Below are positions 2,518 to 40,133 of a stretch of DNA of 41,121 nucleotides, one piece after another (position 1 is the stretch's first letter; each line of letters begins with the position of its first letter). The position numbers were made by a program, and so were the translations under genes. The notes under the pieces are model-generated. The model was given only the letters and a program-made list of their open reading frames with translations. It was not told the origin of the DNA and did not search any database. Source of the stretch: Candidatus Absconditabacteria bacterium (GTDB lineage: Bacteria > Patescibacteriota > Gracilibacteria > Absconditabacterales > Absconditicoccaceae); NCBI GenBank assembly GCA_028685875.1, contig JAQUDD010000004.1, positions 1 to 41,121 on the forward strand, written 5' to 3'.

Positions 2518-2586
2518 TTTTTATAACGTAAGAATATCTAATAGAGAAAATAGATATTTTCCTACTTTTATTTGTGCAGAAAGGGG

Positions 2587-3582
2587 ATGCTGATTAGCTA
2601 TACCGGAGAGTCTGAGAGAATTGATACTTGGCTAAGTAAGGAGTTTTCTTATAGCAGAAATTTTTTTCATCATATTATTGGAAGATGAGGCGTTCAAGTA
2701 AATGGAAAGACGGTAAAAAAGTCCCAAAAACTCAAAGAAGGAGATCAGATTTTTATTGATAATTTAGAAAGATATCTCTCCCCCATTATTTTGGAAGAGG
2801 CGCCTGAGATTGATATCCCTATCTTGCTTGAAGAAGAAAATTATCTCATCATCAATAAACCTAAAGGAGTACTTTCTCATCCCAATAGCGTGCGAGATGC
2901 AAATAAACCTTCGGTGGTGGGATTTCTCTATCATCATTTCAAAGACTTGCCCAGTTATGGAAATTTTATCAGAGCAGGGCTTATTCATAGATTAGATAAA
3001 GATACCGATGGGATTATGGTCATTGCCAAGACGGAGAAGGGATTAGAACATTTCAAAGCACTCTTTCAGCAGAAATCTGAAAATGCAAGTATTGAAGAAA
3101 AAGAAGCTGTTCCTTTGCAGAAATTTTATAGAGCAACTTGTGAAATAAGCGAGGAAGGAGCAACCTTTTTGGAAAGCATCCAAGACCAGCTTCCCTATTA
3201 TATCTCTGAAGAGGTAATCGCAAAAGCTCCCAATACCGCTCCAAAACTCTGAATAACGAAGATTGAATCCATACTCCCCCTTATGAAGGGGGATAAAGGG
3301 GGTTCAAATAGCTGATGAACCTCCCCTCTTGATACGATTTCATCGGATACCCCTTCCCGCAGTTTGTGCGGGACAGGCTCTTCAGAAGGAGGGCAAGTGC
3401 AGATTTTTCTCCAGATCCTCACCTGAAGGACGCATCAGATTAGATATCACCTTTCGAATAAAGGACTTCCTATTCTCTGAGATTATCTCTACGGAAAGGA
3501 AAGTGATGAAGCAATGCAACTTACTGCCTACAAACTTCTCTATCAAGACTTGGATGGAGAAATAAGAACGATTGAGATATAA
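2587..3582 (+). CDS. RluA-family 23S rRNA pseudouridine synthase with in-frame repeat insertion
   Basis: Encodes a 331-residue pseudouridine synthase that isomerises uridine in rRNA. An S4 RNA-binding domain (about 10-57) precedes the catalytic domain. The HRLDKDTDG motif carries the catalytic Asp near residue 137, and TGRTHQIR near residue 279 is followed by LSNKG-P-LGDYLYGK, as in RluA/RluD. The Gly of TGRTHQ and of LGDY are both TGA. Between ITKIESI and QVQIFLQILTG lies about 41 extra codons (3271-3393) made of palindromic repeat DNA, read through in frame with two TGA as Gly. The insertion falls in a loop before the last conserved block, so the enzyme may still fold. ATG at 2587 is preceded by AAAGGGG. 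The stop is TAA. Confidence 0.88.
3271..3393. repeat. Palindromic repeat inserted inside the pseudouridine synthase gene
   Basis: About 123 nt (41 codons) with self-complementary blocks: CTCCCCC-TTAT-GAAGGGGG, AACCTCCCC against AGAAGGAGGG, and a small nested palindrome TCCCGCA/TGCGGGA at 3355-3373. It separates two conserved parts of the enzyme without breaking the frame. The nested TCCCGCA/TGCGGGACAG module recurs at 39904-39921. Confidence 0.7.
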
Positions 3583-36708: not shown

Positions 36709-36890
36709 GTCATCCTGAGTGCAACGCTGCGCCACGCACAAAGCTGCGTGGAAGGATCCAGATTTATAAGGATTCCTTTTTTACTGGATTCTTCACTCTG
36801 TTCAGAATGACAGGAGTTTTATCTGGATTGCTTCACTTCGTTCGCAATGACGGAAGTGCTAAGCAACACCATACCTAGGCACCCGGGTGG
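36709..36890. repeat. Palindromic repeats with nested module
   Basis: 36709-36812 opens GTCATCCTGAGTGCAACG and closes CTGTTCAGAATGAC. A nested 27-nt palindromic module lies at 36725-36751; its inverted copy is at 40010-40036. A GGATTGCTTCACTTCGTTCG unit ends at 36852. 36857-36890 (GCTAAGCAAC ... AGGCACCCG) recurs at 37826-37860. Confidence 0.75.
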
Positions 36891-36923
36891 ATGTTGGGCA
36901 AGCACCCGTATGATTATTTTATG

Positions 36924-36951
36924 TTGACTTTATATATAAAATATATAGACT
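36924..36951 (+). promoter_or_regulatory. Promoter of the lipoprotein-like gene
   Basis: TTGACT (36924-36929), 16-nt spacer, TAGACT (36946-36951). Confidence 0.45.
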
Positions 36952-36996
36952 ACATGTCTATAAAACGAAAATAAAACCAACTTAAAAAAAATTCAT

Positions 36997-37716
36997 ATGG
37001 AAAAGATTAAATTATTTCTGCTAGCAACACTAGCTATTGTACTTTTCACGAGATGTGAAAAAGATGAGCCGAAGTTTTTCCTTCCGGATTTGGAATATAG
37101 CCTTCTTAATGAGAATCTTACTCCAAAAAAAGATAGACTTGTAAAAGTCTCTTCTGGGAAAACTACAACACTGTTCCTGGTGATTGATGGGATGAAATAT
37201 ACCCAGACGATAAAACTCTATCAGAGAAATATTACTCTGAAAGAGACAGTTCTTTCTCAGCAACACATTCACAACCTGACTAGGAAAAACGACACCATCC
37301 CGATCTCATTTAGAGATTTGGGAAAGGGGAACTATAATTCTCAAATTATAGGGATATCCTCAGGGATTGATGAAATGATGCTTACCACCTTCGCGGTGGA
37401 AATTGAGGGATCTGGGAACCAAACAGATCCTGACCCGGAAGAATATGGAATCATTTGTTATCTAGGAGACAACATTGCAGGGAGTACAGTCTATCTGAAC
37501 TCGAACCAAGGGAATATGTACCTTAAGGTTCGGGGAGACTTTCCCAATTATACCCTTGTGAAGTATCTTTGGGAAGATGAAGTGAATGCACAGTCCACGG
37601 CGATGTATGGGAAGCAAGCAAATATAACGCTCCCCTACATTCCTAACAGTACTCGATATGTACGTGTATGGATTGATGGGTACAAAATTCAGAAATTCAA
37701 GGTTGTGGGGCAATAA
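36997..37716 (+). CDS. Lipoprotein-like secreted protein
   Basis: 239 residues. N terminus MEKIKLFLLATLAIVLFTRC with Cys at 20 resembles a lipoprotein signal, although Arg at -1 is unusual. Then acidic CEKDEPKF and two beta-rich parts (about 45-135 and 150-239), like tandem Ig-type domains. The CEKDE start and TAA-A-rich start context are common in Bacteroidetes surface lipoproteins, but this is impression only. No TGA among about 16 Gly. It has its own promoter and terminator. Function unknown. Confidence 0.68.
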   Translation: MEKIKLFLLATLAIVLFTRCEKDEPKFFLPDLEYSLLNENLTPKKDRLVKVSSGKTTTLFLVIDGMKYTQTIKLYQRNITLKETVLSQQHIHNLTRKNDTIPISFRDLGKGNYNSQIIGISSGIDEMMLTTFAVEIEGSGNQTDPDPEEYGIICYLGDNIAGSTVYLNSNQGNMYLKVRGDFPNYTLVKYLWEDEVNAQSTAMYGKQANITLPYIPNSTRYVRVWIDGYKIQKFKVVGQ

Positions 37717-37732
37717 GGAAAAAAATTCTTAT

Positions 37733-37766
37733 AAAAATCCGAGCTATATGTGAGTTCGGATTTTTT
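37733..37766 (+). terminator. Rho-independent terminator
   Basis: ATCCGA ... TCGGAT hairpin with imperfect inner pairing, then T6. Confidence 0.75.
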
Positions 37767-38396
37767 GTTTGGGGAGAAAGACTCTGTTATCAAGCCCCTC
37801 CCCGACTTTGTCGTGCACCACCCGGGTGCTAAGCAACTTCACATTCAGGCACCCGAGTGGTTGCTATTGATATCTCCAGTCGAATGGTGTAACACGGACG
37901 CATTGACGATGCGTCCCTACCCATGTGCCTGTAGGGACGGTTCGTTAAACCGTCTTGTTTTTTTGTCATTCTGAATGCAGCGAAGCGAAATGAATAATCC
38001 AGATAGCATTCACTGGATCCTTCGTTTCACTCAGGATGACACAAAATTGTCATTCTGAATGCAGCGAAGAATCCCGTCTACAGACAGTGGATTGCCACGC
38101 TTCGCTCGCAATGACAATGAAGAATCCAGATAGCATTCACTGGATCCTTCGTTTCACTCAGGATGACGGTCGGCAAGTATAGAAACTGAAGAATCCAGCC
38201 CACAGACAGTGGATTGCCACGCTTCGCTCGCAATGACAAGACCCCGGGGTTCTGCAAATCATGCAGATCTAACCCCGAAGTCTTGAGGCAAAAGAAAAAC
38301 CCTCCTTACGAAGGAGGATTGGGGAAGTTTTCACATTCAGTGGATTGCCACGTCGCTTCGTTCCTCGCAATGACCACATAAGACACAAATTATACT
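37767..38396. repeat. Repeat array downstream of the YadA-head-like gene
   Basis: Gene-free. 37826-37860 is a second copy of the GCTAAGCAAC/AGGCACCCG repeat. 37888-37937 has ACGCATTGACGATGCGT and GTAGGGACG arms. From 37966 to 38258 alternating units of GAATCCA...TGGATCCTTCG...CAGGATGAC and CAGTGGATTGCCACGCTTCG...CGCAATGACA are chained. 38246-38281 is a strong hairpin (CGGGGTT, CTGCA / TGCAG, AACCCCG). 38308-38325 holds CCTCCTTACGAAGGAGG. No gene recognised. Confidence 0.8.
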
Positions 38397-39542
38397 CTAT
38401 CCTTGAAAATAATTTTGGAAGCAGGCTACATATTGGTAGCTAGGATTAGTCCATGTTCCATCAGGATTACAAGTGATAGTAGCCTTATGATTATTACAAT
38501 TTTGTGCAGTTTGAGCGTTGTAAGCAGTGAGTTGGGATCCTGCTGCTCGGTATTTACCTCCCCAAGAACAACTTTGGGAGATTCCATGATCTGCTCGGTT
38601 ACCACAAGCCTCTCTGAGATTATCTCCTTGGAAGTTTACATTGAGAGGGTGTCGGTATTTACCATCACAGACGTAGAGACAAGCTCCATACTCTGCAGAT
38701 GCAGCAAAGACTTTGAGTGTCCCTGCGATCGTGCTGGTACAAGCGTTGCTTCCCTTGAGATTTGATGCAGCAGTCTGTCCAAGGGCGACTGCTCCTGCGA
38801 CATTCACATTGAGACCATCGACAGAAGTGGCAGTGTTGATTCCCATACCGTTGAGAGATCTGACTACAAAACTATTAGCCTGAGTTGCCTCAAAGGATTT
38901 TCCTTCATACTCAAAGTCATCATAATCACTCCATGCGAAGACATTAGGAGCAGTAATTGCAACCTCTTGTCCCATGGCGAGGGAGTAGTCTCCTGCTACA
39001 CTATTACGAGATCCGAGGATACTCGCATAGTTAGCAGAGATCGTATTATCTGCTCCTCCTGCAATGGCAGAGTAAGACCCTGCAATGGTATTTCTTCCTC
39101 AACCAGCAATCATACTATACGACGAGTTGGGTTGAACAGTATTATATCTTCCCCCTCCGATGCTACTGTAATCTGATTGAGATTGTATTTCATTAAATCC
39201 TCCTCCTGCAATCGTTGCATAATCTGCCTGAATGACATTTCCACTTCCTCCTGCAATCATAGATCATATTCCTTCATTACTATTTCCTTCTGATCAAATC
39301 GTCAGTCCTCCTTCAATAGTCAGAATGTGGCTTTCACTCGCAGACTGGGTAATGGCAAGTCCTGGAGTCGTAGAAGTTGCTCCGATTCTAAGTTCGCTCA
39401 GATAAGGGACATCTAGCTCCGATGTAGTGAGACTGGTCGGGATTCTGAGCGTAGCGGCTCCGAGGAATAAGGCACCAAAAGAAAGGGTGATAGATGCCGA
39501 GAGGAGTAGCGTTTTACTCCAGAATTTTTGTTGTTGTTTCAT
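38397..39542 (-). CDS. YadA-head-like (Hep/Hag repeat) surface protein
   Basis: 381 residues. N-terminal signal or anchor (KTLLLSASITLSFGALFLGAA), then a short domain, then about seven head repeats (about 90-200) of the pattern DYATIAGGGFNEIQ, DYSSIGGGRYNTVQ, SYSAIAGGADNTIS, YASILGSRNSVAGDYSLAMG. These are the left-handed parallel beta-roll of YadA-type adhesins. The C-terminal part (about 260-381) is Cys-rich (ACLYVCDGKYRHP, EACGNRA, SQSCSWGG, CFQNYFQG). No outer-membrane anchor barrel is present. Three TGA codons are Gly. Adhesion to a host cell is a fair inference. Direct repeat arrays flank it. Confidence 0.85.
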
Positions 39543-39595
39543 AGGGTAAGCTCTTTAGATAAAAAAGATGCTACATTTAGTCATAGTCGAGATTA

Positions 39596-39624
39596 AGTAT
39601 AGTTATTATGCATGGATTTGTCAA
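39596..39624 (-). promoter_or_regulatory. Strong promoter of the YadA-head-like gene
   Basis: On the minus strand TTGACA (39624-39619), 17-nt spacer, TATACT (39601-39596), 54 nt before the start codon. Nearly perfect consensus. Confidence 0.75.
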
Positions 39625-39650
39625 CAAAATGCAAGGGATTTTTTTGTGTA

Positions 39651-40133
39651 TCGTCATTCTGAACGCAGTGAAGCGAAATGAAGAATCCAGATAGCATTTA
39701 GTTCACATTCACTGGATCCTTCGTTTCACTCAGGATGACGGACTATTGTTATCCTGAATGCAGTGGAGAATCCAGTCTACAGACAGTGGATTGCCACGCT
39801 TCGCTCGCAATGACAATGAAGAATCCAGATAGCATTCAGTGCACATTCACTGGATCCTCCGTTTCACTCAGAATGACACAAAATTGTCATTCTGAATAGT
39901 TTATCCCGCAGAACTGCGGGACAGTGAAGAATCCAGTCTACAGACAGTGGATTGCCACGCTTCGCTCGCAATGACAATGAAGAATCTAGCTCACATTCAC
40001 TGGATCCTTCCCCGCAGCTTTGTGCGCGGCGCAGCGTTTCACTCAGGATGACGGAGTATTGTCATTCTGAACGCAGTGAAGAATTCAGCCCACAGACAGT
40101 GGATTGCCACGCTTCGCTCGCAATGACGGTGAA
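39651..40133. repeat. Large array of chained and nested palindromic repeats
   Basis: At least seven units. Type 1: TCATTCTGAACGCAGTGAAG ... TGGATCCTTCGTTTCACTCA. Type 2: AGACAGTGGATTGCC ... CTCGCAATGAC. Nested modules interrupt some units: TCCCGCAGAACTGCGGGA (39904-39921) and a 27-nt module (40010-40036). Uninterrupted versions are in the same array. There are no regular spacers, so this is not CRISPR. Confidence 0.85.

Follow-up and report, generated by a model that had tools for sequence, protein, structure and literature searches.

According to Di Nocera et al. (2013, PMC3733652), no transposase is dedicated to CGTC REPs, a family that includes dRS3 of Neisseria and RPE-4/RPE-6 of Rickettsia. 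The origin, diversification, and spread of REPs are an open question, above all for the CGTC REPs, for which no transposase is known. The current study concerns a window of 41,121 nucleotides (contig C6, positions 1 to 41121) of a draft genome (1.03 Mb, 16 contigs, 99% complete) and the palindromic units dispersed in it. These units resemble CGTC REPs (PMC3733652) in their (C/T)GTC tag, present in 127 of 141 sampled units (43 CGTC and 84 TGTC, with CCTC left out of the count), in a stem starting with AT, in a CCA tail (138/141), and in the formation of dimers and clusters without a dedicated transposase; the AT..AT arms were imposed by the search pattern, and the CCA tail is the only independent part of the stem/tail comparison. 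They differ in their outer stem of 5 bp, the GA/GA dinucleotides, a variable interior X, and interior hairpins that were very probably gained in place and are shared with an unrelated palindrome family. The contiguous stem of 8 to 9 bp with a loop of 4 to 5 nt, by which CGTC REPs are defined, is absent here, and the units are therefore CGTC-like REPs rather than members of the full CGTC class.

Further likenesses extend to other systems. Some GTAG REPs, e.g., GTAG-3 and GTAG-14, have large self-complementary loops, and variants whose loops contain nested complementary regions occur side by side in one family. These elements, however, carry a GTAG tag and are mostly linked to RAYTs, and the text consulted (PMC3733652) describes no filled/empty pairs. 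The REPINs described by Bertels and Rainey (2011, PMC3116915) are likewise short palindromes scattered in intergenic positions, but they have another tag and go together with a RAYT gene that they flank, a gene type that was not found in the present genome (0 matches to PF01797). The tiny GC-rich palindromes known as GC clusters of yeast mitochondria spread, merge, and shuffle, with small units merging into larger ones (Wu and Hao 2015, PMC4478555). They differ in residing in organelle DNA, in their AG target duplications, and in the turnover that population data reveal for them. The small dispersed repeats (SDRs) of cyanobacteria attributed to Elhai and colleagues in 2008 are reportedly gene-less units of about 20 to 27 nt that insert into other repeats and move as wholes. 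The 25-nt unit in four REPs described below is of comparable size, but it was not found outside REPs, and sequences and hosts differ.

With genetic code 25, in which TGA is read as glycine, the window genes for RpoD (1255-2517) and for a pseudouridine synthase (2572-3582) both stay open. This points to a genome of the SR1/Gracilibacteria group, in agreement with the public names of two relatives with a hairpin in common, which are SR1 MAGs. The host units have the layout GTC-arm-GA-X-GA-arm-CCA, in which X is a mini-hairpin whose loop is often GNA or GNNA, so that the stem consists of 5 outer bp, a GA/GA mismatch, and then at least 2 bp closed by a loop of 3 to 4 nt. Throughout the genome, GTCATYCTGA-N(4-34)-GRATYC matched 130 times and GTCATTGCGA-N(4-34)-GCAATCC 42 times, with no match to the reversed pattern in either case. 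Whereas CGTC REPs form mostly dimers with outward tags and only rarely the HT arrangement, pairs of the present REPs within 100 bp have their tags outside (37 pairs), inside (20 pairs), or pointing in the same direction (23 pairs). Examples in the window are a unit whose X is extended in the manner of a ladder, ACGCAGTGAAGCGAAAT (39653-39688, plus strand), and an ATTGC-arm unit, GTCATTGCGAGGAACGAAGCGACGTGGCAATCC (38342-38374, minus strand), which is the partner of a degenerate filled unit at C11:127758 (stretch L004). Ladder growth of X was also observed in relatives G002, G003, and G008, where NN-GNA-NN repeats are nested in one to three levels, e.g., ATGAAGCGTAGCATAATGAAGCATAGCATAAT in G003. 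On contig C11 (stretch L087, 25630-26790 and 34016-35500), ATTCT and ATCCT REPs alternate in long tandem arrays with a period of about 77 to 97 bp.

At least two complementary end pairs were present in 57 of 69 distinct X taken from the source genome and related genomes; with shuffled ends the number averaged 11.6 and never exceeded 26 (5000 permutations). The X slot covaries, and, judging from the sequences, the interior between the two GA dinucleotides would hold a small DNA hairpin. GNA accounts for 14 of 25 distinct triloops (46 of 54 copies in the sample) and GNNA for 5 of 10 distinct tetraloops. Loops of these two types give rise to extraordinarily stable DNA mini-hairpins, e.g., GCGAAGC (PMC4686876), and the match to this rule is a hint at folding of the DNA strand itself. 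Energy prediction nevertheless gave an empty unit only weak folding (-1.9 kcal/mol, z -0.3), although the energy model may omit the GNA bonus.

Five tandem composite repeats located between positions 37991 and 40130 (plus strand) align closely, namely R1a (37991-38117), R1b (38118-38240), R2a (39678-39817), R2b (39818-39977), and R2c (39978-40130), and two separate hairpin indels distinguish them; the assembly is a draft, and tandem repeats are easily misassembled. Unfiltered scans for gapped repeats returned mostly tandem duplications. R2c alone carries a 25-nt insert, the hairpin module GCTGCGCCGCGCACAAAGCTGCGGG (40011-40035, minus strand), which is placed between CTGGATCCTT and CGTTTCACTCAGGATGAC, i.e., between X and the 3' GA of a filled REP unit with ATCCT arms and X = GTGAAAC (40002-40052, minus strand). 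Its flanks (16 plus 16 nt) agree at 32 of 32 positions with those of the empty copies 38007-38038 and 39706-39737, and at 29 of 32 with the empty copy at C11:46551. The empty twins lie on the minus strand at 39714-39739 (GTCATCCTGAGTGAAACGAAGGATCC), 38015-38040, and 38142-38167. A second copy of the module, GCTGCGCCACGCACAAAGCTGCGTG (36726-36750, plus strand), occupies the filled unit 36709-36759 (plus strand; ATCCT arms, X = GTGCAAC), and its change of the consensus pair C9-G24 to A-T is a paired one that keeps the inner hairpin. R2b alone carries the TCCCGCAGAACTGCGGGA hairpin (39904-39921), and it does so in a different REP, an ATTCT-arm unit at 39886-39934 (plus strand) whose empty twin with X = ACGCAGT is found at 40061-40086 (plus strand).

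These pairs had been noticed in a preliminary description of the window, whose quoted strings were located where it had placed them. It described nested palindromes with filled and empty sites, which are indeed present, and gave the splitting module 27 nt. As it had reported, one 27-mer agrees with the reverse complement of the other at 25 of 27 positions, but the net insert comprises 25 nt at both loci, with a placement that is ambiguous by one base and no junction repeat or target duplication beyond one base. Its "inverted copy" at 36725-36751 does contain the module, but the host unit 36709-36759 is itself inverted, so that site and orientation are the same as in 40002-40052. The interruption of another unit by TCCCGCA/TGCGGGA is a hairpin indel, as claimed, but not a clean one of 18 nt, since the filled copy exceeds its empty twins by 23 nt and also differs from them at a few positions next to the hairpin.

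The collection of genome copies and the filled/empty alignment proposed in that description yielded four copies of the module at one fixed joint. A search with the 25-mer at up to three mismatches found exactly C6:40011, C6:36726, C11:124191, and C12:34363, with none for the reversed control and none outside REPs in the genome. All four copies lie within REP units, which make up 1.8% of the sampled sequence, and all occupy the joint of X with the 3' GA in a single relative orientation, which gives no support to a module moving independently in both orientations. When the hosts are read in the direction of their REPs, three have the arms and X ATCCT/GTGAAAC, ATCCT/GTGCAAC, and ATTGC/GCTTAC, and the fourth is a degenerate ATTCT unit whose X is GCGAAGC. 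This makes three arm types and four different X, and for each of them the genome contains empty units that agree in arms and X, except that those of the third host have X = GCTTGC. This third host, the unit at C11:124181, has GCTTAC instead of GCTTGC, with an AC ending as in GTGAAAC, such as would remain if an ATCCT donor had converted a short tract; the case is a single one and only suggestive. GC-rich hairpins inside REP units were about 7-fold over-represented (6 seen versus 0.85 expected) in a 243-kb sample of stretches around matches, which underlies the REP statistics and is biased to REP-rich regions. The counts across the genome against the reversed controls ruled out chance.

Among 24 relatives, the 25-mer search detected no filled unit in any REP; the sole match, with three mismatches in G009, lies at a locus without a REP unit. 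The identical empty unit GTCATCCTGAGTGAAACGAAGGATCC (GTGAAAC) is present in G003 and G023. An orthologous filled/empty comparison downstream of serS gave no information, as seven congeners have no REPs at this place and differ in the neighborhood. The module's presence as an indel, its constant site and orientation, the differing hosts, the empty twins, the absence of filled units from the relatives searched, and the occurrence of other cassettes in an unrelated palindrome family rich in C/T are observations. Since none of the relatives searched has a REP-borne module while two have the identical empty unit, the comparison of sequences indicates that the 25-nt module was very probably gained in place, within REP copies that already existed. 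The broader proposal that small palindromes were moved or copied into others is supported by the two hairpin indels in paralogous tandem copies and by a module in four differing hosts with empty twins.

Other hairpins behave in a comparable manner. ACCCGCTAAAGCGGGT has four copies in the genome, of which two lie in ATCCT REPs, one in an ATTGC REP, and one in a C/T-rich palindrome, and the CCCGCA..TGCGGG hairpin is also common to REPs and this unrelated C/T-rich family. The latter has the structure A(A/T)CCCCC-[slot]-TCCCCC-loop-GGGGGA, with a short spacer in the slot of some copies and GCTTCGC, GCCTTCGGC, GTCACTCCGTGAC, or TGTCCTCCGGACG in that of others; the C/T-rich palindromes are a second family with REP-like slot behavior. 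At C11:134762, an insert of 22 nt bears a hairpin, and its flanks agree with those of an empty copy at 32 of 32 positions. In relatives, hairpin inserts were found at other points of these REPs (G023:C42, G008:C49, and G008:C71), and in G005 the X slot itself is filled by CCCCGCAGTCCTGCGGGG.

A phylum-wide family of the form CCCGCA-N6-TGCGGG was considered and rejected: other loops dominate elsewhere and the CAAAGC loop was confined to this genome in the sample, so that the stem alone is not diagnostic. CCCGCACAAAGCTGCGGG recurs across phyla, with a raw count of 66 stretches that hold the exact 18-mer; because many of these matches come from one Planctomyces MAG or from coding-like DNA, the sharing across phyla is only suggestive. 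The contigs of Planctomyces sp. DS3.3.33 (L125-L190), a single MAG, contain the repeat ACATGCCCGCACAAAGCTGCGGGGCATGCCACCC in many copies. In Bacteroidetes MAGs (L144, L157, L161, L175, L178, and L186), CCCGCACAAAGCTGCGGG is nested in other palindromes, e.g., GTTGTTGGTG..CACCAACAAC and CCCCTT..AAGGGG. Partial tRNA copies adjoin an intact tRNA-Thr on the minus strand of an SR1 MAG (L152, JAPLUV010000023.1, 7440-7690); their D loop contains inserted GC hairpins (TTTCCCGCTAAAGCGGGATAAAGTCC and CTCCCCGCAGCTTTGTGCGGGGCTCACTTCGTTCGGTCC), and a T-arm copy contains another. A tRNA-like match of 34.5 bits in Bacteroidota KLAP35 (L145, 3269-3334) has the TCCCGCACAAAGCTGCGGGA hairpin as its anticodon arm, and ARAGORN reported no tRNA there.

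An orthologous comparison for a whole composite is provided by the pseudouridine synthase gene, which carries an insert at 3271-3394 (plus strand) that is absent from seven congeners. The proteins of all seven can be aligned up to and again beyond residues ~234 to 274, which they lack, and the net length of the insert is 102 to 105 nt as measured from those congeners in which both sides align without overlap. The insert is a real in-frame gain and contains C/T palindromes and a nested hairpin, TCCCGCAGTTTGTGCGGGA (3355-3373, plus strand). The preliminary description had taken this hairpin for the same module as that at 39904-39921; both indeed have a TCCCGCA/TGCGGGA stem with GGGACAG after it, but the loop differs, and the hairpin is thus a related, different module. 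A palindromic element in frame within a protein gene is a trait of RPE-like intragenic palindromes and is found here.

With moderate confidence, we explain the whole by small hairpin cassettes that were gained in place within existing CGTC-like REPs through copying at the DNA level. Hairpins would become single-stranded during replication or repair, and a cassette would be copied between hairpin loops by template switching or short-tract conversion, a route to which we assign roughly even chances and whose mechanism is inferred. Such copying would account for the constancy of site and orientation, for target duplications that do not exceed one base, and for the probable tract at C11:124181. 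The module may insert by itself or be exchanged along with a portion of the loop. Four copies are few, and one site and orientation also fit one founding filled unit followed by arm exchange: a single REP would have been filled once and the filled unit spread whole, its arms and X diverging by point change and exchange, while the module never moved alone. The uniform placement of the four copies, the ATCCT arms and the X only one base apart of the two window copies, and the dispersal of REPs themselves in more than 100 copies are compatible with this history. It is nevertheless rather improbable in light of three arm types and four X that each also exist empty, and of the outer flanks of 40002-40052, which are those of its tandem neighbors and identify a locus that was changed in place. 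Replication slippage can delete hairpins precisely, and the modules could in principle be parts of an ancestral loop that most copies no longer have, a reading that the preliminary description had set against its own. Precise losses would then be required in four of five tandem copies for each of two modules, the empty form is common to other genera while the filled form was found in 0 of 24 relatives, and the junction repeat amounts to one base only; an ancestral origin is accordingly very improbable.

An IS200/IS605-like Y1 transposase of the RAYT type, now lost or acting in trans, might have integrated the hairpins in single-stranded form and left no target duplication, and the preliminary description had proposed to look for a TnpA-REP transposase. 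The hairpin-bounded units, the absence of duplications beyond one base, and the PF01797 genes of some relatives would suit such an enzyme. However, PF01797 had no match in the genome, while positive controls were matched, and the REP load of the relatives does not track the gene: G003 has 38 REP matches and no PF01797, many genomes bearing PF01797 have no REP matches, and none of four Y1 loci examined in relatives is flanked by these REPs. As CGTC REPs have also been reported without a dedicated transposase (PMC3733652), enzymatic insertion appears unlikely, and copying from hairpin to hairpin is favored over enzymatic transposition. A far wider extension is conceivable but doubtful, namely that unrelated bacterial palindromes share a pool of interchangeable mini-hairpin cassettes, which would be swapped or nested as single-stranded DNA is copied, with no transposase involved, and would recur in distant phyla and even in tRNA-derived arms.

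For the biology of REPs, the filled/empty pairs, the fixed site in four backgrounds, and the GNA/GNNA loop rule point to a copying process at the level of DNA, in which hairpins of 16 to 25 nt act as separate units of inheritance. In one case, a palindromic composite has entered a protein gene in frame. These findings suggest that very small DNA elements may be copied into one another without a visible transposase.
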